Origin: an uncultured Rhodospirillaceae bacterium
GTDB lineage: Bacteria; Pseudomonadota; Alphaproteobacteria; UBA8366; GCA-2717185
Direction: 5' to 3'
DNA length: 41,251 nt
NCBI GenBank assembly: GCA_913044215.1
Contig: CAJWOT010000008.1
Location: forward strand, 1 to 41,251
The position numbers and the translations under genes are program-made. Shown piece after piece: positions 1-27,208 of the stretch. Each line of letters opens with the position of its first letter. Position 1 is the first letter of the stretch. The notes below the pieces were generated by a model that searched no databases, was not told the DNA's origin, and worked only from the letters and a program-made list of their open reading frames with translations.

Positions 1-929
1 GCCGCGATATAGGTGTCCGTTTCCAGATCGTCGTCCACCGCGCCGGTCAGATCGGCAATACGGGCGATACCGCGGCGATCGCACCATTCTTCCAGATCTT
101 CCAGGATCGAGATCATCGCCGTCGGGTTGCGGAAGGAGGCGTAGCCGACCTGCACCGCGCTGGCGCCCGCCAGCATGTATTCGATCACATCCTCCGCCTT
201 GACGACGCCGCCGCAGCCGATGATCGGGATCGAGACCGCCTTGGCAACGTGATAGACCATCCGCATGATGATCGGCTTGACCGCCGGGCCCGACATGCCG
301 CCGGTCTTGAAGCCGAGCGACGGGCGGAAGCTTTCCGTGTCGATGCGCATCGCCAGGATCGTGTTGGCCACGGTCAGCGCATCGGCGCCGGCCTCTTCCG
401 CGGCGCGGGCGATGCCGACCACGTCGCCCGCATTCGGCGACAGCTTGACGATCACCGGCAGATCCGTCGCGGCTCGGATGGCGCGCACGGTCTCGCCCGT
501 ATGATCCGCATGCAGGGCGAAATTGCCCCCACCGGGATCGCGGGTCGGGCAGGAGATGTTGATCTCCAGCGCGTCCACATCCGGCACGGTGACATCGCGG
601 GCCATCTCGGCGAAATCCTCCACCGTGGTCGAGGTGATGCTGACGACGGTCGGCGGGCTGTACTGGGTGTATTGCGGCAGCAGCTCGTTCAGGAAGTAGT
701 CGAGCCCTTTGCCGGGCAGGCCGATGCAGTTGATCATGCCGCATTCGACTTCGGCGACGCGGGGCGGCGGGTTGCCGTCGCGCAGGTCGCGGCTGACCGT
801 CTTGGTCAGGGTCGCGCCCAGCCGGTTGATGTCGATGACCTGTGCCATCTCGTGCGAAAAGGTGCCCGACGCCGGCATCACCGGGTTGGGCATCTCGAAG
901 CTGCCGAGTTTGACCGAAAGATCTACCAT
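1..929 (-). CDS. Dihydroorotate dehydrogenase-like flavoprotein (class 1B catalytic subunit type), 3' end cut by window
   Basis: An FMN TIM-barrel enzyme of the PyrD class 1 family, which oxidises dihydroorotate or a related cyclic amide in the cytoplasm. I translated it from ATG at 929; 309 codons are visible and the family is about 305-315 residues, so only the last few residues are missing. The loop TKTVS (42-46) matches the flavin-contacting lysine loop, NISCP (124-128) carries the class 1B catalytic Cys127, and KLSPN and IIGCGG match FMN/phosphate-binding segments. Its start overlaps the stop of the electron-transfer subunit by 7 nt (ATGGTAG), so the two should be translationally coupled and form the heterotetramer typical of class 1B. 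Two substrate-side asparagines differ: CPT replaces CPN, and GLPGKG replaces the usual GLQNPG. The substrate may therefore not be dihydroorotate; a dihydropyrimidine or other lactam is possible. The family call is firm; the substrate is open. Confidence 0.9.
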   Translation of the reverse strand, partial: MVDLSVKLGSFEMPNPVMPASGTFSHEMAQVIDINRLGATLTKTVSRDLRDGNPPPRVAEVECGMINCIGLPGKGLDYFLNELLPQYTQYSPPTVVSITSTTVEDFAEMARDVTVPDVDALEINISCPTRDPGGGNFALHADHTGETVRAIRAATDLPVIVKLSPNAGDVVGIARAAEEAGADALTVANTILAMRIDTESFRPSLGFKTGGMSGPAVKPIIMRMVYHVAKAVSIPIIGCGGVVKAEDVIEYMLAGASAVQVGYASFRNPTAMISILEDLEEWCDRRGIARIADLTGAVDDDLETDTYIA

Positions 930-1801
930 CCCATCGCCTCCTTGATGTCGAAGACAGGTCCGTCGATGCAGACCCGCTTGAGGGTTTTGACGCCGTCGAT
1001 TTCGAACGTGCGCACGCAGACGTAACAGGGGCCGAGGCCGCAGGCCATGATCTGCTCCATCGCCACCTGGCCCGGAATATCGTGCTTCTCGCCCAGCCGC
1101 TTCATCAGCATGAACAGCCGGTTCGAGCCGCAGGTGTAGAACGCGTCGGCGCGGCCCTGCGCGATGCGGTCCTCGATGATGGCTTCGACATTGGCGATGT
1201 CGCTGCTGCCGTCCGTGTCGGTGACGGTGACGATTTCCGCGCCCGCCTTCTCGAACAGATCGCCGGACATGGCGAGTTCGGGGCTGCGCGCGCTCAGGAT
1301 CACCGTCGCGCCGACACTATTATCCGCGATCATCTGCGAGATCGGCGCCAGGGTCGCGAGACCGACGCCGCGGCCCAGCACGACCACATGTTTCCAGTCC
1401 GGCTGGATCGTGAAGCCGACGCCGAGCGGGCCGACCATGTTGAACTGGTCGCCGGGTTCCAGCATCGCCGTGCCCTTGGTGCCGCGGCCGACGGTTTTGT
1501 ATAGGAATTCCAGCCGCTGGTTCTCCTTGTCGACCAAATAGACGCTTTGTGGCCGGCGCAGCCACAGATCGCCCTCGTCCGGCGACGGGCAAAGCCAATG
1601 GAAGAACTGCCCGGGCTTGGCGGTCAGGGATTTCGGCGAGGCGGTGACGATCAGATGCTTGTATTCGTCGTTGATCCAATCGTTCGACAGCACGGTCGTG
1701 ACGGCTTCCTCGACCGGGGCCTTCGGCGAATGGTCGACGAAATCGGCATCGCCGACGACGCGCGGCTTGGTCGAAAAAACGGTGGTTTGCGGTTCGGTCA
1801 T
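923..1801 (-). CDS. PyrK-like electron-transfer subunit (FAD, 2Fe-2S)
   Basis: A ferredoxin-reductase-fold protein that passes electrons from the partner flavoprotein to NAD. From the ATG at 1801 it is 292 residues. An N-terminal beta-barrel has the FAD motif RRPQSVY, the middle is an NAD-binding domain, and the C-terminus carries the PyrK-type cluster cysteines C254, C259, C262 and C278 (CGLGPCYVC, then KRVC followed by DGPVF). The reading frame extends upstream to a TTG at 1849, but the ATG at 1801 fits the start of the conserved region better; neither has a strong ribosome binding site. The last codons overlap the start of the catalytic subunit by 7 nt. It is about 30-40 residues longer than typical PyrK because of an N-terminal extension before the barrel. 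The pairing supports a class 1B-type complex; Alphaproteobacteria normally use the quinone-linked class 2 enzyme for pyrimidine synthesis, so this pair may have a catabolic role (inference). Confidence 0.87.
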   Translation of the reverse strand: MTEPQTTVFSTKPRVVGDADFVDHSPKAPVEEAVTTVLSNDWINDEYKHLIVTASPKSLTAKPGQFFHWLCPSPDEGDLWLRRPQSVYLVDKENQRLEFLYKTVGRGTKGTAMLEPGDQFNMVGPLGVGFTIQPDWKHVVVLGRGVGLATLAPISQMIADNSVGATVILSARSPELAMSGDLFEKAGAEIVTVTDTDGSSDIANVEAIIEDRIAQGRADAFYTCGSNRLFMLMKRLGEKHDIPGQVAMEQIMACGLGPCYVCVRTFEIDGVKTLKRVCIDGPVFDIKEAMGW

Positions 1802-1867
1802 GCGGGGGTCCAGATGCTGGAATCGTTCAGAAAGTGATAATAGTCCCAAAAATGTTACAAATCCAGA

Positions 1868-2752
1868 TCAATCCGTGTGTTTGGCGATTAAACCGCGCAT
1901 AAAGTCCGCCGCCGCGGTCCCTTTCAGCGCCCGGCGCCACATGTCGGCGACGGTCTTCTCGTGCAGGGCCAGCGCTTCGGGTGCCGAGGTGATCATGGCG
2001 ACGCCGACACGGACATTGGGCTGCGCGCCGAGCCTGAAGGGGCTGACGGTCAGCATCTTGCGGTCTGGCTGCCGGAAGATCTGAAAGCCGGTATGGGGCA
2101 GCGTGTCCGGCACGATGCCAATCTGCACGCCGATCGGCTGGTCCGCCATCATGTCGGAGAGATTGCGTGCCTCGGCCATCGCCAGGTTGCGGCGTTCGGC
2201 ACGTTCGGCCTCGCTCAGTTCGAGAGTGCCGACCAGCCCGTTGCGCAGGAATCCATCCATCTCGATCGCCGACAGTAGGTTGACGACGCCCGGGCTGCGG
2301 TTGCGGAAGGTCGCCTTGCGGGCGGCCAGCACCGCCATGATGTCGGCGGCCTGCTGCAGGGCGGCGTCCCGGTCCGGCAAATCCGCCGGGATGTTCTCGC
2401 GCAGGATCGCCGCCAAGATATCGTCGAAGGCATCGGAGGCGAGCAGGTAGGAGATCGGGCCGGCGAGGACGACGATATGTTCTGCCGTCTCCTCGATCTG
2501 GCGGATGCGCTCGAAATAGCTCACCGCCGAGGCGACATATTCGACCCCAACGCCGAGCAGGGTCGGGATCGACACCTCCAGCAGATCGGCGAGCTTCTCC
2601 AAGGTGTCGATCTTGGCCAGCTCGCCCTTTTCGAACCGGTAGAGAGCGGTGCGCGAAATACCGATCCGTTTGGCGACCTCGTCGGCGCTGAGGCCGGAGC
2701 CGAGCCGGAAGGCGCGCAGCCGGTTGCCGATATCGTCGAAGCGGATCGCCAT
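1868..2752 (-). CDS. XRE-family transcriptional regulator with C-terminal sensing domain
   Basis: A 294-residue DNA-binding regulator. Residues about 8-62 form a Cro/CI-type helix-turn-helix: LSADEVAKRIGISRTALYRF contains the turn and recognition helix, followed by DTLEKLADLLEVSIPTLLGV. The remaining 230 residues are alpha/beta and probably bind an effector; they resemble the C-terminal domain of XRE regulators found next to catabolic genes, but I cannot name the ligand. It begins 9 nt after the stop of the molybdenum-hydroxylase large subunit and ends 66 nt before the electron-transfer gene, all on the same strand, so it sits inside that transcription unit and probably regulates it. No transmembrane segment is visible. 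The ATG at 2752 starts exactly at the conserved N-terminus of the HTH domain. Confidence 0.88.
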   Translation of the reverse strand: MAIRFDDIGNRLRAFRLGSGLSADEVAKRIGISRTALYRFEKGELAKIDTLEKLADLLEVSIPTLLGVGVEYVASAVSYFERIRQIEETAEHIVVLAGPISYLLASDAFDDILAAILRENIPADLPDRDAALQQAADIMAVLAARKATFRNRSPGVVNLLSAIEMDGFLRNGLVGTLELSEAERAERRNLAMAEARNLSDMMADQPIGVQIGIVPDTLPHTGFQIFRQPDRKMLTVSPFRLGAQPNVRVGVAMITSAPEALALHEKTVADMWRRALKGTAAADFMRGLIAKHTD

Positions 2753-2761
2753 CAGGCGCCG

Positions 2762-5104
2762 TCAGCCGCCATCAATCGCGGCGAGAATCTCGGCCGGGCC
2801 GAGCGGCGATTTGGTGAGCCGCACCTCGAATGGGGACAGCGCGTCCTCGATGGCAGCGATGATCGCGGCCGGGCCCGGGAAGACGCCGCATTCTCCCACG
2901 CCTTTGACGCCGATCGGGTTCAAATGGGTCGGCGATTCGTGGTGGATCACCTCGATGGCCGGCACTTCCGGCGCGGTGATCAGCAGATAGTCGGCCAGAT
3001 TGGTGGTCTGCGGCTGCCCGTACTCGTCGAAGCCCATCCATTCGTACAGCGCGTTGCCGATGCCGTGCGCGGCGGCGCCGATGATTTGACCGTCGACAAT
3101 CTGCGGATGGATGACGGCGCCGCAATCGTGCCCCAGCACGAAATTGCGGATCGCGACATGGCCGGTCTCGGGATCGACTTCCACCTCCACCGCGGCGGAC
3201 CCGTTGGCGTAGGTCAGATCGTCGATGACCACATGTTCGGTCGCTTCCAGCCCGGGCGCGACACCGCCCGGCAAATTGTAGCCGGGCACGCCCGCGACCG
3301 ACCGGGCGACTTCGCCCAGCCCGACCTTCATATCGGCGACGCCGGCGACGCGGATTTCGCGCCCGACGATCTCCAGATCCGCCTCCGACGCCTCCAAAAG
3401 GTGGGCGGCGATGGTCAGGGCCTTCTGGCGGACCGCAATCGCGGCGACATGGGCCGAGGAGCCAGCGGTGACCGCCTGGCGGCTGTTGAAGCCGCCGATG
3501 CCGAGCGCCGCGGCGGCGCTGTCACCCGCGGAAACCTTGACGTTCGACAGGTCGCCGCCGAGCTGCGTGGCAACGATCTGCGCCATCATCGTCTCGGTCG
3601 ATTGGCCCATCGCGGTGGCGCCGGTCGCGACCTGGATCGTGCCGGAGGGGGCGATGCGCACGGTGGCCGATTCGAAGGGGCCGCGCCCCGTGCCTTTGAC
3701 GAAATTCGCCATACCGATGCCGAGATAGCGGCCTTCCGCGCGGGCTGCCTGCTGCCGGGCCGGAAACTCATCCCAGCCGGCGCGGGCCAGCACGTCGGCC
3801 TGGCATTTCGGGTAGTCGCCGCTGTCCAGTATGACCGGGCCGCCGCCGCGGTTCTGCAGCGGCTTGGTCTTCGGCATGTCGGCGCCGGACACCAGGTTGC
3901 GGCGGCGAATTTCCGCCCGGTCGAGGCCGAGCGCCTGCGCCGCCCGGTCGAGCAGCCGCTCCATCACGAACACGCCCTGCGGCTGACCGGCGCCGCGCAC
4001 CGGGGTCACCGGCACCTTGTTGGTGAGCGCCAGCTTGACCGACATCGCATAGGCGGGAATCTCGTAGGGCAGGGTGACGGTGATCGCCGATTCATAGGGC
4101 AGGTTCACGCCGCGTGCGGTGAAGGCGCCGTGATCGTGGATCAGGCTGCCGCGCAGGCCGAGGATTTTGCCCTCGCCGTCGGTTGCGATCTCCGCCTCCC
4201 AGAACTGATCGCGCTCCTGGGTCGTGCCGATGAAATGTTCGCGCCGGTCCTCGATCCATTTGACCGGGCGGCGCAGGATCAGCGCGGCGACGGCCAGGGT
4301 GATGTCCTCTGGGTAGAAGATCAGTTTCGGGCCGAAGCCGCCGCCTAGCTCGGGCGCGACGACGCGGACGCCGGTCTCGTGCCGGCCCAGCATGTCGCAG
4401 AGCAGCTGGCGGGCGGTGTGCGGGGTCTGGGTGGAGCTCCACAGGGTGAGCAAATCTTCCAGCGGGTCGTAGGTGGCGACATTGCCGCGGCACTCGATGG
4501 AATGACCGCCACCGCGATGCTGATGGAAGTTTTCGCGAAACACGTGCGGGGCAGTGGCAAAGGCAGCGTCGGTGTCGCCGAACGCCATGTCGAATTCGGC
4601 CAGCAGATTATGCTCCGCGCCGTCATGCACCGGGGCGGCATCTTCGGCAAGCGCTGCGCGGGCGTCGGCGACCGCGGGTAGCGGGTCGTAATCCACATCG
4701 ACCAGGGCGGCCGCGTCCTCGGCGATGTAGCGGTCATCGGCGACGACGAGGGCGATGGGCTCGCCGACATGGACCGTCTCCGCGCCGGCGAGCGCGATGC
4801 GGTTGCGGTCCTGGCGGTAGCTCGGGCTCGGCAGGCCGACGACCAGCCGGTCGGTCTCCAGGTGCGGCTGCAGATCGTCGAGGGTCAGGACAGCGTGGAC
4901 GCCGGGTATGGCGAGGGCGGTGCTCTTGTCGATCTCCCGGATATGGGCGTGGGCGTGGGCGCTGCGGACGAAGGCCGCTTCGAGCATACCGGGCAGGGCG
5001 ATATCGTCGACGAAGCGCGCCTCACCGCGCAGCAGCCTCTCATCCTCGAGCCGGGGCACGCTCGCCCCGAATACCGCGTCGTTCACCCTACCCTCGCGCA
5101 CCAT
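2762..5104 (-). CDS. Xanthine dehydrogenase-family molybdopterin-binding (large) subunit, orphan
   Basis: A 780-residue molybdenum hydroxylase large subunit (CoxL/XdhB superfamily) that hydroxylates a carbon using water. The N-terminal a/b hammerhead domain begins with RLEDERLLRGEARFVDDIAL. Molybdopterin contacts include GGGFGPK and PVRGAGQPQG. The C-terminal GVGECG carries the catalytic glutamate, E738. The active-site loop of true form I CO dehydrogenase (AYRCSFR) is absent, so it is not a CO dehydrogenase. No FAD or 2Fe-2S subunit is adjacent; a complete set lies 22 kb away at 27216-30906. The XRE regulator follows after 9 nt. ATG 5104 has a weak ribosome binding site; a GTG at 5086 is preceded by GAGGGTAGG and could be the true start, removing six residues. 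The substrate is unknown; N-heterocycles and aldehydes are the usual family substrates. Confidence 0.92.
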   Translation of the reverse strand: MVREGRVNDAVFGASVPRLEDERLLRGEARFVDDIALPGMLEAAFVRSAHAHAHIREIDKSTALAIPGVHAVLTLDDLQPHLETDRLVVGLPSPSYRQDRNRIALAGAETVHVGEPIALVVADDRYIAEDAAALVDVDYDPLPAVADARAALAEDAAPVHDGAEHNLLAEFDMAFGDTDAAFATAPHVFRENFHQHRGGGHSIECRGNVATYDPLEDLLTLWSSTQTPHTARQLLCDMLGRHETGVRVVAPELGGGFGPKLIFYPEDITLAVAALILRRPVKWIEDRREHFIGTTQERDQFWEAEIATDGEGKILGLRGSLIHDHGAFTARGVNLPYESAITVTLPYEIPAYAMSVKLALTNKVPVTPVRGAGQPQGVFVMERLLDRAAQALGLDRAEIRRRNLVSGADMPKTKPLQNRGGGPVILDSGDYPKCQADVLARAGWDEFPARQQAARAEGRYLGIGMANFVKGTGRGPFESATVRIAPSGTIQVATGATAMGQSTETMMAQIVATQLGGDLSNVKVSAGDSAAAALGIGGFNSRQAVTAGSSAHVAAIAVRQKALTIAAHLLEASEADLEIVGREIRVAGVADMKVGLGEVARSVAGVPGYNLPGGVAPGLEATEHVVIDDLTYANGSAAVEVEVDPETGHVAIRNFVLGHDCGAVIHPQIVDGQIIGAAAHGIGNALYEWMGFDEYGQPQTTNLADYLLITAPEVPAIEVIHHESPTHLNPIGVKGVGECGVFPGPAAIIAAIEDALSPFEVRLTKSPLGPAEILAAIDGG

Positions 5105-5221
5105 GCCGCCGCTTCACGGCCGTTCCGGCCATTAGAGGCGCCGGTCGTGCAATAATCAACACAAATCCCAAAAATGGGACAGATGCATCACGAATTTCGA
5201 ATCACCCGACACAACCCCGCC

Positions 5222-6202
5222 TTACATATCGAGGACCGACGGCGTGAACAGTTCCGCTGGGTCGAGCTTGCGGTCGGTCATGCCCTGCTCGAAGGCGTAG
5301 CGGGTCATCGCCTCGATTTCCTTCATGTTGTCGGCCATGCCGTAGCGCCAATAGTCGTCCCCCATCAGCGCCTGCGCCCGCGCGAACTCGTCCACCGGCC
5401 AGGGCAGCATCGTGTAGAGATGCCCGACCTCGCCCAGCCGCTGGTAGCAGATCGCGCGGGCTTCCAGATAGGCGCGGTACACATGCACCGGCAGCCAGGG
5501 ATGCTGCTCGAACAGGCTGCGCCGGATCGCGACCAGATGCATGATCGGGAACATGCCGGTCTTGGCGAAATAGGCTTCCTCGTCGGCGCGGTAGTTCGGG
5601 AACAGCCGGACAACCTTGTCATTGGTCTCCAGGCAGGACGGTGCGCGGGCCGACATCATCGCGTCGAGTTCGCCGCTGTCGAGCATGGCGTTGAGGGTCG
5701 CGTCGCCCGCGATCCGCTGAACTTCGATCGACGGCGGCAGCGCAATGGCGATGCGCGGCTTGCTGATCGGCTCTTCCTGTCCGCCGACCCGCCAGGACAT
5801 GTCGCTCGCCGCGACGCCGTACTCATCCTGCAGGATGCCGCGGATCCACAGGGCCGCCGTCATCGGATATTCCGGCACCCCCATGATCTTGCCCTTGAGA
5901 TCCTCCGGCCGATCGATGCCCTTGTCGGTGCGGATGTAGATCCCGGAATGGCGGAACATCCGCGAGACGAAGGCCGGCACGCCGACATAGGGATTCTCGC
6001 CACGAGCCGTGAGGGTCATGAAGTTCGACATCGACAGTTCGGTGATGTCGAACTCCTGATGGCTGAGCGCGCGAGTAAACGCTTCCTCCGGCGTCATCGG
6101 ATGGGCGATGACCTCGCAGCCATCGATCCGCACGCTGCCGTCGAAAATCGCCCGCGTGCGGTCGTAGGAGACCCCCGCCAGGCTGACCGTGACCTTCGAC
6201 AT
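5222..6202 (-). CDS. 4,5-dihydroxyphthalate decarboxylase-like / periplasmic-binding-fold protein
   Basis: A 326-residue protein with the type 2 periplasmic-binding fold. The N-terminus (KVTVSLAGVSYDRTRAIFDG), an HQEFDITELSMSNFM segment and GIDRPEDLKGKIMGVPEYPM resemble proteins annotated as 4,5-dihydroxyphthalate decarboxylase (Pht5 type) and as ABC-transporter substrate-binding proteins. There is no signal peptide or lipobox and no permease or ATPase gene in the window, so a cytoplasmic enzyme or sensor is more likely than a transporter component. The gene stops 3 nt upstream of nothing on its strand; the isomerase gene ends 3 nt before its start, and the LLM oxidoreductase precedes that, giving a three-gene operon. 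The Rieske oxygenase at 36180-37481 resembles phthalate dioxygenases, which makes an aromatic-acid role plausible but unproven. Confidence 0.75.
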   Translation of the reverse strand: MSKVTVSLAGVSYDRTRAIFDGSVRIDGCEVIAHPMTPEEAFTRALSHQEFDITELSMSNFMTLTARGENPYVGVPAFVSRMFRHSGIYIRTDKGIDRPEDLKGKIMGVPEYPMTAALWIRGILQDEYGVAASDMSWRVGGQEEPISKPRIAIALPPSIEVQRIAGDATLNAMLDSGELDAMMSARAPSCLETNDKVVRLFPNYRADEEAYFAKTGMFPIMHLVAIRRSLFEQHPWLPVHVYRAYLEARAICYQRLGEVGHLYTMLPWPVDEFARAQALMGDDYWRYGMADNMKEIEAMTRYAFEQGMTDRKLDPAELFTPSVLDM

Positions 6203-6204
6203 GC

Positions 6205-6816
6205 CTAGGCCGCTTTGCTGCGGTCGATCGCCGCCTTGATCAGTTCCAGCCGGTCGTTGCCGAAATACATGTCGGATCCATTGACGAAGAAGGTCGGCGA
6301 GCCGAAGCCGCCGCGTTCGATGATCTCATCCGTGGTCTCGAACAGTTTGCGTTTGATCGTATCGTCGCCGATCTGCGCGAAGAAATCGTCCGCATCCATG
6401 CCGGCCTTGCCGACGATCTCGCGCAGCACGTCTTCCTGTGAGATGTCCTTGTCGTCGCACCAATAGGCTTCGAACATGGCGCGGGAATAGGGCGAGATGG
6501 TGCCCTGCTCGATGGCCACGAAAGCGCCGCGCAGCGCTTTGACGCTGTTCACCGGAAAGACGCTGGGCTTGATCATGCTGATGCCCTGATAGGCGCTCCA
6601 GTCCGCCATATCCTTCTTATAGTAATTGTCCTTCGGCGGCACCGGATTCTCGCGGCGCTGATAGACGCTGGGATTGACCTTGTTGAACACCCCGCCGACG
6701 AGGAAGGGTTTCCAGACCAAATCCGCACCGTTGTCGGCGCAGAAACTTTCGATCCGATCGTAGGCGAGGAAGGTCCAGGGGCTGGAATAGTCGAAGAAGA
6801 ACTCGATGGTGGCCAT
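6205..6816 (-). CDS. 2-hydroxychromene-2-carboxylate isomerase-like DsbA-family protein
   Basis: A 203-residue thioredoxin-fold protein of the GST-kappa/HCCA isomerase group. In naphthalene catabolism this family isomerises 2-hydroxychromene-2-carboxylate with glutathione. Visible features are EFFFDYSSPWTFLA at the N-terminus, with serines 11-12 where the family has its glutathione-activating serine; WKPFLVGGVFN in the second strand-loop; and the cis-proline motif GSPTFFVNG near the C-terminus followed by FGNDRLELI. The frame is open much further upstream, but ATG 6816 is preceded by CAGGGA and begins exactly at the conserved strand, so I use it. It lies in an operon between the LLM oxidoreductase and the decarboxylase-like gene. 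It could act on a different glutathione-dependent isomerisation substrate; the family call is strong. Confidence 0.88.
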   Translation of the reverse strand: MATIEFFFDYSSPWTFLAYDRIESFCADNGADLVWKPFLVGGVFNKVNPSVYQRRENPVPPKDNYYKKDMADWSAYQGISMIKPSVFPVNSVKALRGAFVAIEQGTISPYSRAMFEAYWCDDKDISQEDVLREIVGKAGMDADDFFAQIGDDTIKRKLFETTDEIIERGGFGSPTFFVNGSDMYFGNDRLELIKAAIDRSKAA

Positions 6817-23224: not shown

Positions 23225-23659
23225 ATGGTTCGATTGGCAGCAATCCAGCAATCGGCGGTCCTTCCCTACCGGTTCCGAAAGGACCGGTTGGAATTGCTGT
23301 TGGTGACGTCGACGGGTACGAAACGGTGGATCCTGCCGAAAGGGCACATCGAGCCCGGCCTGTCGGCTCGGGAATCGGCTGAATTCGAGGCATTGGAAGA
23401 GGCCGGAGTCGTCGGCACGACCGGCCCGCGCAGCATTGGCACCTATCACTATCAAAAACGTCCGGAGAAAGGCGGCGAGCGATGCCGGGTCCGGGTCTTT
23501 GCGATGGCCGTCACCCGTCTACTGAAAAGCTATCCGGAGAAGTCGAAGCGAAAGCGAAAATGGATGACGTGTAAGAAAGCCTTGCAGGAGATTCAGGAAC
23601 CCGAATTGCGCGCCTTGATCGAGCAGTTTGCAAGTTCGGTGACCATACCTTTGAGTTAG
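23225..23659 (+). CDS. Nudix-fold hydrolase with altered Nudix box
   Basis: A 144-residue protein of the Nudix family. The N-terminus (AIQQSAVLPYRF) and RWILPKGHIEPG are typical of the fold. The Nudix consensus is G-x5-E-x7-R-E-U-x-E-E-x-G-U; here the segment runs GHIEPGLSARESAEFEALEE then AGV, so the first Glu is Leu and the Arg is Phe, while the metal-binding EALEE glutamates remain. Relatives of this subgroup (annotated NUDIX hydrolase, DIPP-like) hydrolyse diphosphoinositol or dinucleoside polyphosphates. Activity may be reduced or changed. ATG 23225 has no clear ribosome binding site. It converges on the CNB-SDR gene with a 9-nt gap. Confidence 0.85.
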   Translation: MVRLAAIQQSAVLPYRFRKDRLELLLVTSTGTKRWILPKGHIEPGLSARESAEFEALEEAGVVGTTGPRSIGTYHYQKRPEKGGERCRVRVFAMAVTRLLKSYPEKSKRKRKWMTCKKALQEIQEPELRALIEQFASSVTIPLS

Positions 23660-23668
23660 GTCTGTTTC

Positions 23669-24430
23669 TTAGAATTGCACTCGCGTTGTCGATGCGCCGT
23701 CGACGATCAGGTTCGCACCGCTGATATAGCTTGCTGCCGGGCTGGCGAGGAAGACCACGGCGTTCGCGACTTCCTCCGGCGTACCCAACCTACCAAAGGG
23801 ATTGCGCGACACGGCGGCCTCGTAAGCCTCCGGCGCTTCGCGTTTGCGCACGTCCCAGACACCGCCTTCGAAGAAGATTGCACCGGGTGACACGGTGTTG
23901 GCGCGGATGCCTTTGGCGCCGAGATTTGTGCTCAGCCCGGACAGGTAGTTGATCAATGCCGCTTTTACGCCGCTATAGGCACGGACGCCACCCGACGTGT
24001 TCACTGCCGCAGTGCTGGCGATAGCGGTAATCGACGCGTCATCGGACTTTTCCAGGAACGGCACGGCGGCATCGACGGCCCGAACCGTGCCCAGAATGTC
24101 CACTTCCATGCCGACCCGCCAGGCATCCATGCTCGCCTGGCCGGCCAGCGCACTGGCGTTGGCGACGAGGATATCGAGACCGCCAAACGCGTCCGCCGTC
24201 TCACCGATCCAGTTCTGCAGACCGCTGTCGTCCGTTACATCGACGGCAGCCCCTTGCACGGTTGCGGCAGACCCGGACAGCGCGGCCACGCAGTCCTCTA
24301 CCTGGGCTTTGTCGCGGGCGCAGAAACCGACATGGCAGCCTTCCGCGGCAAGCAGATCGACGATCTTACGCCCGATACCCCGCGTGCCGCCGGTTACGAT
24401 CGCGCGTTTTCCCCCTAACCCCAGGTCCAT
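23669..24430 (-). CDS. Short-chain dehydrogenase, internal in-frame start within the fusion
   Basis: A 253-residue SDR nested at the 3' end of the longer frame. It has the nucleotide motif TGGTRGIG, VANASALAG, the serine IASTAAV, the YSGVK Tyr-Lys pair and SPAASYISGANLIVDGA at the end, so it should be an active NAD(P)-dependent oxidoreductase. AAAGGGAGGCAAGA directly precedes ATG 24430. Standard length for the family and the strong start signal suggest this is the true extent of an independent gene, whether or not the upstream protein reads into it. Confidence 0.75.
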   Translation of the reverse strand: MDLGLGGKRAIVTGGTRGIGRKIVDLLAAEGCHVGFCARDKAQVEDCVAALSGSAATVQGAAVDVTDDSGLQNWIGETADAFGGLDILVANASALAGQASMDAWRVGMEVDILGTVRAVDAAVPFLEKSDDASITAIASTAAVNTSGGVRAYSGVKAALINYLSGLSTNLGAKGIRANTVSPGAIFFEGGVWDVRKREAPEAYEAAVSRNPFGRLGTPEEVANAVVFLASPAASYISGANLIVDGASTTRVQF

Positions 24431-26305
24431 TCTTGCCTCCCTTTGCTGCTGTTTTTGTCTGCCGTTAAATTGGCCACGCAAACGGCTGACGAGCGTTGTG
24501 ATGACGTGACTGATCAGGCGATCTTCTTCCGCCAGCCAGGACAGCCGATTCTTGAAGACTTCCTGCGGCACGACATAAAGCGTCGTGTCCTGCTTTGCCG
24601 TTGCCGTGGCCATGCGCGGTTCGTCGTCCACCAGGGCCATCTCGCCGAATACCTCTCCCCGGCCGAGCGTCGCGATGATCGTTCGCGCGTCCGCGTCGCC
24701 AACGGCGATATCGACTTCCCCTGACACGATGACGAACGCCTCGTCTCCAGGTTCAGATTCCCGGAAGATGGTCTCGCCTGCTTTGAACGCCCGGCTATTC
24801 TGGTCTTGCTTTGGTTTCTTGCGTTTCGGGGTCGGTTTCAGTGATGCCTTCTGCTCTTGCGACGGCACCTTTCGGTCGAGAAACCCGTCGAGCTTTTTGG
24901 TGATGAGCGCGCTGATCTCCTGACCGAGCTCATCTTCGCCGACGCGGAGGCGCAGATCGTCCACGGTGGCGGCCAACGCCTCGCGGGGGCTGTTCGGCGG
25001 CAAAAGGTCCGACAAGACGGTCAGCGACTCGACGATATCGAGAAGGCGCGTCAGGACCGGCGCCTGATACTTCACGCCGAACTCCGAATGGCTGAGGTCG
25101 AGCAGATAACCGATTTTGACGGCGTTTGTCGGCAACAGATTGAAAATGAATGCGATACCGTCATCCGCCGACAGGTCGCCATTCGCATCGCCCATGACAA
25201 TTCGGGCGCGGCGCGTCACCGCCTCGCAAATCTCCGGCCCGCCATGCAGTCCAGCGTGAGAGAGCAAGTCCTTGACGAGTTTGGGGAATGCCGTCCGGTC
25301 GGACGTTTCGTTCTCGCGCGTTAACGGGTTCGTGCCGGAGGTTTCCTTTGCGACCCGTTCGAGCAAGGTGCGCCGCGTCTCGACCATAGGAAATTTCTGC
25401 ATGGCCGCGTTGAGCCGGACGAGGTGGGTGTCGCGGCGGTGCTTGCCTTCGAAACGGCCGCCGGTGAGATTCGCCATGATACGAAGGGCGGTGGCCAAAT
25501 CCGGCTGTGGGCCAAGTATCTCCATGATCGCGCCCGAGCCGTCCAGGATTTCGGCGCAGAGCTCGTCGAGATAGCTGAGGGCCGTCGCGTCAGGGCGCTT
25601 GTTCATGAGATCGAGGACAAGCGTGAGTTTGCTCTCCCAGTCCCGCGCCTGCCCGAGAAACGCGGCCAGCGTCGCGCAGATATAGAATGGGCGCGCCTCT
25701 TCCGAAAAGGATGTGCCGATTACCCGCAGCGCCGGGGTAAGTCCGTCGCCGTTCGTGATCGACAGAAAACGGTCGGTTTCCCGCATCTCTCGCGTCTCAT
25801 CAAAGAGCTGCGTCGCCAGACGGTAAAGCAAGTCGATGCGCGTTTGCGCTGTCTCGCCCAGCGCCCGTGCTTGCACGGAGCCGACCTTGTGAATGGCCTG
25901 GTCGTAGAGTTTCTCGGTGCGGCGCAGTTCGCGGAAGTGATTGTGATCGTGCAGCACCTCAAGCGCCGTGAGATTGTACTCGTCGAGATATTTCCGCAGG
26001 ACCCGGCCCGCTGTTTTGCGGGCCTCGAAACCGGTCAGGTTTGACAGGGTGACGCAGATTGCGGCGTGGTCGATCGCGGATGCCGTGATAGGTCGATCGG
26101 GACGCGCTGCGCATTCCTGCTGGAAGATGACCTCTTCCTTGCGGTTGCCAGTCTCACGCGTGACCCGCACCGCATCATGCGGACCACCGGACAGCAGAGC
26201 CTGTGCCCGGGACATCGCAACCGTCTGCGCGATATGGATCGAATCGATCGTCCAGCGGCCGCCCGACTCGGTCTGCACCTCGTAACTGATCTCGGGCTGG
26301 TTCAT
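23669..26305 (-). CDS. Cyclic-nucleotide-binding protein fused in frame to a short-chain dehydrogenase
   Basis: One uninterrupted frame of 878 residues. Residues 1-505 are mostly helical and unassigned, ending in a basic stretch (KPTPKRKKPKQ). Residues about 507-600 form a cyclic-nucleotide-binding domain: FKAGETIFRESEPGDEAF and the phosphate cassette GEVFGEMALVDDEPR with G554, E555 and R564. From M626 a complete 253-residue SDR begins: GGTRGIGRKI, the YSGVK catalytic pair and a normal C-terminus. The SDR methionine, ATG 24430, is preceded by GGGAGG at 6-nt spacing, an ideal ribosome binding site, so it is probably also made alone. Near the junction CAATTTAAC would become a TAA stop with one additional T, so a single-base loss may have fused two genes. 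I know no standard CNB-SDR architecture. Confidence 0.8.
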   Translation of the reverse strand: MNQPEISYEVQTESGGRWTIDSIHIAQTVAMSRAQALLSGGPHDAVRVTRETGNRKEEVIFQQECAARPDRPITASAIDHAAICVTLSNLTGFEARKTAGRVLRKYLDEYNLTALEVLHDHNHFRELRRTEKLYDQAIHKVGSVQARALGETAQTRIDLLYRLATQLFDETREMRETDRFLSITNGDGLTPALRVIGTSFSEEARPFYICATLAAFLGQARDWESKLTLVLDLMNKRPDATALSYLDELCAEILDGSGAIMEILGPQPDLATALRIMANLTGGRFEGKHRRDTHLVRLNAAMQKFPMVETRRTLLERVAKETSGTNPLTRENETSDRTAFPKLVKDLLSHAGLHGGPEICEAVTRRARIVMGDANGDLSADDGIAFIFNLLPTNAVKIGYLLDLSHSEFGVKYQAPVLTRLLDIVESLTVLSDLLPPNSPREALAATVDDLRLRVGEDELGQEISALITKKLDGFLDRKVPSQEQKASLKPTPKRKKPKQDQNSRAFKAGETIFRESEPGDEAFVIVSGEVDIAVGDADARTIIATLGRGEVFGEMALVDDEPRMATATAKQDTTLYVVPQEVFKNRLSWLAEEDRLISHVITTLVSRLRGQFNGRQKQQQREARMDLGLGGKRAIVTGGTRGIGRKIVDLLAAEGCHVGFCARDKAQVEDCVAALSGSAATVQGAAVDVTDDSGLQNWIGETADAFGGLDILVANASALAGQASMDAWRVGMEVDILGTVRAVDAAVPFLEKSDDASITAIASTAAVNTSGGVRAYSGVKAALINYLSGLSTNLGAKGIRANTVSPGAIFFEGGVWDVRKREAPEAYEAAVSRNPFGRLGTPEEVANAVVFLASPAASYISGANLIVDGASTTRVQF

Positions 26306-26428: not shown

Positions 26429-27208
26429 ATGGCTGGCGATCCAACGGTACCCGATTTTCGGCTCGACGGGCGCACCGCGCTGGTCAGCGGTGCTGGGCGC
26501 GGCCTCGGTGTCGGAATGGCGCACGGGCTGTCGCGCGCCGGGGCGCATGTCGTCTTGATGAGCCGGACTCGCGCAGAGCTGGACAATGTTGCGGCTGAGA
26601 TCATCGCCGAGGGCGGAACGGCGGACGTGTTGGTCTGCGACGCGACGGACGATGCGGCGGTGCAGGCGGCGATCGGCGGATTGCCCGCGCTCGATATCCT
26701 GGTGAACAACGCCGGAACGAATATCCCGCAACCCTTCGTGAAGGTCGAAGCGGCAGCGCTGGATACCATGCTCAATCTGAATGTCCGCGCCGCCTTCATC
26801 GTCGCCCAGGCGGCGGTCAACCGGATGCTGCGGGACGAAGACCGGAGCGAACGAGGCGGCGCCGTCGTCAATATCTCTTCGCAGCTTGGCCGCGTCGCGC
26901 TGCGTGACCGTAGCGTCTACACCCTGACCAAGCACGCGCTGGAGGGGCTGACAAAATCGATGGCGATCGAGTTGGCGCCGCAGCGCATCCGCGTCAACGC
27001 GGTCGGGCCGACCTGGGTCGAGACGCCGATGACTGGCCCGGCGCTGGCCGATCCCGAATTCCGGGCCGAGATCATTGGCAGTATTCCCATGGGCCATTTG
27101 GCGCAGATCGACGATATCGTCGGTGCGGTCGTCTTTCTGGCCTCGCCCGCCGCGGCGATGATCACGGGCGCGAGCCTGGTCGTCGATGGCGGCTGGACCG
27201 CGCGGTGA
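26429..27208 (+). CDS. Short-chain dehydrogenase/reductase
   Basis: A 259-residue classical SDR oxidoreductase with SGAGRGLG for NAD(P), NNAG, ISSQLG for the serine, and YTLTK for the catalytic Tyr-Lys. The C-terminus ITGASLVVDGGWTAR is canonical. ATG 26429 follows GGGGGGAGGAC. It opens the plus-strand operon that continues into the molybdenum hydroxylase; the next gene starts 7 nt after its stop. It is divergent from the CNB-SDR gene across about 120 nt. It probably oxidises or reduces a substrate or product of the molybdenum enzyme (inference from context). Confidence 0.93.
   Translation: MAGDPTVPDFRLDGRTALVSGAGRGLGVGMAHGLSRAGAHVVLMSRTRAELDNVAAEIIAEGGTADVLVCDATDDAAVQAAIGGLPALDILVNNAGTNIPQPFVKVEAAALDTMLNLNVRAAFIVAQAAVNRMLRDEDRSERGGAVVNISSQLGRVALRDRSVYTLTKHALEGLTKSMAIELAPQRIRVNAVGPTWVETPMTGPALADPEFRAEIIGSIPMGHLAQIDDIVGAVVFLASPAAAMITGASLVVDGGWTAR

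Follow-up and report, generated by a model that had tools for sequence, protein, structure and literature searches.

A CNB-SDR reading frame in one Rhodospirillaceae genome, probably joined by stop-codon loss

When a cyclic-nucleotide-binding (CNB) protein runs in frame into a complete short-chain dehydrogenase (SDR), has a new kind of regulated enzyme been found, or have two neighbouring genes merely been joined? The question is raised by a locus on a 41,251-nucleotide contig sequence of an uncultured Rhodospirillaceae bacterium, referred to below as the window. Between 26305 and 23669 on the minus strand, a frame of 878 codons holds no internal stop, and Pfam places a cNMP_binding domain at residues 505-586 (E 4.9e-23) and a complete SDR domain at residues 633-870 (E about 1e-43). 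The initial annotation had described a stop-free frame leading from a CNB protein into a complete SDR, and the open reading frame scan and the Pfam matches both agree with it. The features of the locus are as follows.

23669..26305, minus strand: merged open reading frame of CNB protein, 10-residue linker and SDR, 878 aa
24461..26305, minus strand: CNB-protein part, residues 1-615 (Pfam; separate homologues; AlphaFold2 model of low confidence)
24458..24460, minus strand: codon AGA, corresponding to TGA in the nearest relative; putative lost stop codon (alignment)
24431..24457, minus strand: putative former intergenic spacer, now linker, 27 nt (9 codons), containing GGGAGG (alignment with the nearest relative)
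24436..24441, minus strand: Shine-Dalgarno-like GGGAGG, 5 nt before the SDR ATG, present also in the nearest relative
23669..24430, minus strand: SDR gene, 253 aa, with its own conserved ATG (Pfam; orthologue starts; motifs)
23225..23659, plus strand: NUDIX-domain gene, convergent, a conserved neighbour (Pfam; gene order)
26429..27208, plus strand: second SDR gene (SDR2), divergent, a conserved neighbour (Pfam; gene order)

Comparison with related genomes suggests that adjacent, co-directional CNB and SDR genes were very probably joined in frame, in this lineage alone, by loss of a stop codon. Four congeners (G001-G004) were compared with the source genome, itself an assembly of 525 contigs; G002 was left out of the junction comparison because the junction lies outside its two gene-bearing contigs. 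The nearest relative, G001, shares about 97% protein identity over the CNB part and 96% over the SDR part. Its junction reads CAA TTT ATC GGC TGA CGA ... AGGGAGGTAGGA ATG, where the window reads CAA TTT AAC GGC AGA CAA ... AGGGAGGCAAGA ATG. No gap interrupts the alignment of the two sequences near the junction, and the TGA of G001 falls on the AGA at 24460-24458, followed in the window by an in-frame spacer of 27 nt. Since the alignment is gapless and G001 carries TGA where the window carries AGA, the difference points to a substitution rather than to a one-base deletion. The initial annotation had proposed that a one-base loss merged two genes; the two merged genes stand, while the one-base loss does not.

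The more distant congeners G003 and G004, at 63-68% identity overall, have their CNB and SDR genes arranged as in the window, with TAG closing the CNB gene in each. A stop between the two domains, which the initial annotation had suggested looking for in related genomes, is therefore found in G001 (TGA) and in G003 and G004 (TAG); the extra, stop-restoring base that it had also envisaged is not what separates the window from its relatives, which differ by a substituted base and not by an added one. In G001, G003, G004 and G008, the stop comes within a few codons past a conserved LVxRLRxQ segment or its equivalent, and the CNB-protein part of the merged frame ends at the position where relatives carry their stop. 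Each of the CNB homologues of G008, G018, G030 and G043 occupies an open frame of its own (about 616-669 aa), with a match that finishes within query residues 610-618. Wherever the junction of a relative is contained in a single contig, the CNB and SDR frames are separate. This is most simply read as an ancestral stop that disappeared on the branch leading to the window. The CNB gene of G001 is split over contigs C517 and C394, both of which end inside the gene (break at residues 463-472), so that residues 464-471 are covered by neither; despite this split, the G001 junction itself lies within one contig.

Additional evidence that the SDR is a gene in its own right comes from its start. The SDR methionine is residue 626 of the merged frame, at 24430, and the sequence leading into it reads AAAGGGAGGCAAGA-ATG. 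The initial annotation had pointed to this methionine and to a GGGAGG placed 6 nt upstream; both are present, at a spacing of 5 nt. All 26 of the SDR orthologues compared share the same ATG start, beginning MDLxL or MELxL, and most of them have a purine-rich stretch just upstream of it. This conserved start is seen at loci with and without a CNB neighbour, and stand-alone SDR orthologues of about 60-80% identity occur in many genomes of the order. The protein carries both motifs of a classical SDR, TGxxxGxG (TGGTRGIG, residues 638-645) and YxxxK (YSGVK, residues 777-781), and is like other members of that family (PF13561/PF00106) in having a complete domain with these motifs; it differs from them in being in frame with an upstream gene. 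None of the best 25 NCBIfam subfamily matches reached its cut-off, the best being PRK07231 at 163 bits against a required 215. A scan for consensus promoters found no sigma-70-like site, so an internal promoter is unsupported, and RNA folding of the junction gave nothing unusual (z about 0).

These observations suggest a simple route to the merged frame. A T to A change on the coding strand would have turned the upstream TGA into AGA. By chance, the length of the spacer (27 nt) is divisible by three and no further stop lies within it, so a single substitution would have sufficed. Ribosomes starting at 26305 would then read through the linker, predicted to be RQKQQQREAR (10 residues), and make an 878-aa fusion in place of the free CNB protein, and the retained GGGAGG and the ATG at 24430 would still allow some free SDR of 253 aa to be made, so that fused and free SDR are probably both produced. 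The locus is like known fusions of operon genes by stop-codon loss in that the genes are adjacent on the same strand, with an in-frame spacer and a substituted stop codon; it differs in being known from the sequence of one genome alone. The best reading is a stop-loss fusion within a two-gene operon, recent and confined to a single lineage.

The divergence between the window and G001 is informative about how selection may have acted on the junction. Over the 30 nt of the lost stop and the spacer there are 5 differences (16.7%); the adjacent CNB part differs at 4.7% and the SDR at 3.9%, with changes mostly at third positions. For the CNB and SDR genes, dS is 0.13-0.20 and dN about 0.011-0.015. 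Spacer divergence appears to be close to the synonymous rate, as expected of non-coding DNA, for what is a small sample of 30 nt; at this rate there is no sign of coding constraint on the linker, and the fusion itself may be about neutral. In contrast to the linker, the proteins on either side of the junction have dN/dS values of about 0.06-0.08, which indicates that both partners are under purifying selection, a pattern compatible with a useful fusion and with two separate functions. One in-frame difference lies outside the junction: G001 lacks 6 nt of the window (24837-24842) in a low-complexity linker before the CNB domain.

The initial annotation had raised the possibility of a new cNMP-regulated dehydrogenase, in which the CNB domain, on binding cNMP, controls the fused SDR, and free SDR is made from the internal start. 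Each part could work, judging from the intact phosphate-binding motif FGEMALVDDEPRMATATA of the CNB domain and the intact SDR motifs, and the adjoining of the CNB and SDR genes in G001, G003 and G004 makes a functional link between them possible. However, among the genomes of the order compared, the fusion was seen in one only, its linker shows no constraint, and elsewhere SDR orthologues occur without a CNB neighbour. All junctions contained in one contig in relatives are unfused, and a literature search found no published CNB-SDR fusion. With unfused relatives, a linker diverging at a near-neutral rate and a conserved stand-alone SDR start, the proposal is left without comparative support, and we consider it highly unlikely. 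Were there a real, expressed cNMP-responsive dehydrogenase together with free SDR, it would be a very young enzyme, arisen by one base change between genes that were already adjacent; this, too, would be a considerable surprise. A different origin had been suggested by the sequence CAATTTAAC, near which a single-base deletion could have merged the genes, since adding a T there creates an in-frame TAA. That arithmetic is correct, with the site lying slightly away from where it had been placed (24472-24464 on the minus strand, as opposed to 24468-24475). G001 is of equal length at the junction and has its stop two codons downstream, and for this reason the TAA is a coincidence. The deletion was rejected on the basis of the gapless alignment with G001 and the stop at another codon; it would require that G001 carry a compensating change, and is exceedingly improbable.

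Another explanation is that the organism retains the stop, the base at 24460 being either miscalled or drawn from a minority strain, in what is a fragmented metagenome-assembled genome. The 525 contigs and about 5% contamination of the source genome are consistent with this, as is the fact that no other genome shows an open junction. Against it, the change is a substitution and not a homopolymer indel, and it is one of five differences in 30 nt, which is about the expected neutral rate. Moreover, the other differences in the gene favour third codon positions, the pattern of true divergence, and neighbouring genes seem intact. An error is rather unlikely. Loss of the stop codon by substitution is the reading that we prefer, and the locus appears to be an ordinary gene pair joined in this way in one genome; since the closest relatives keep the genes separate, there is little reason to posit a new kind of regulated enzyme. 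The case calls for caution, in that a long two-domain open reading frame in one metagenome-assembled genome should not be equated with a fused enzyme until relatives have been compared. Should the substitution be genuine, the locus offers a clean, recent case in which a single stop-codon change gave rise to a multidomain protein without costing the downstream gene its start.

The CNB protein consists, from N- to C-terminus, of an N-terminal segment, an alpha-helical region and the cNMP-binding domain at 505-586. It significantly matches CNB domain proteins (PF00027), with a phosphate-binding cassette at residues 553-570 that includes the conserved Glu and Arg, and the best PDB matches of the domain are to domains of cGMP-dependent kinase and of PKA regulatory subunits. 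It differs from known CNB domain proteins in that the roughly 480 residues ahead of its CNB domain, N-terminal and alpha-helical, have no significant Pfam match, and in being without a kinase, channel or DNA-binding part. A low-confidence AlphaFold2 model of the CNB part, built from four sequences and with a mean pLDDT of 48.8, has helices at about 83-477 and a mostly helical middle. Two genomes from another family of the order carry a tandem pair of CNB-protein homologues, 29-33% identical to that of the window (G030:C3, about 495406-499263; G043:C34, about 194-3952).

Contig ends aside, G001, G003 and G004 share the order divergent SDR2, CNB, SDR, convergent NUDIX and PiT transporter. The fetched flanks of the SDR in the remaining genomes examined contain no CNB neighbour, and no relatives were found among the viral contigs scanned. 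The NUDIX gene has a dS of 0.04 with respect to G001, compared with 0.13-0.20 in the adjacent CNB and SDR genes, a difference for which recombination, selection or, the gene being short, chance may be responsible. In G004 (G004:C78, about 4795-6456), the CNB gene is separated from the divergent SDR2 by about 1.6 kb, compared with about 120 nt in the window.
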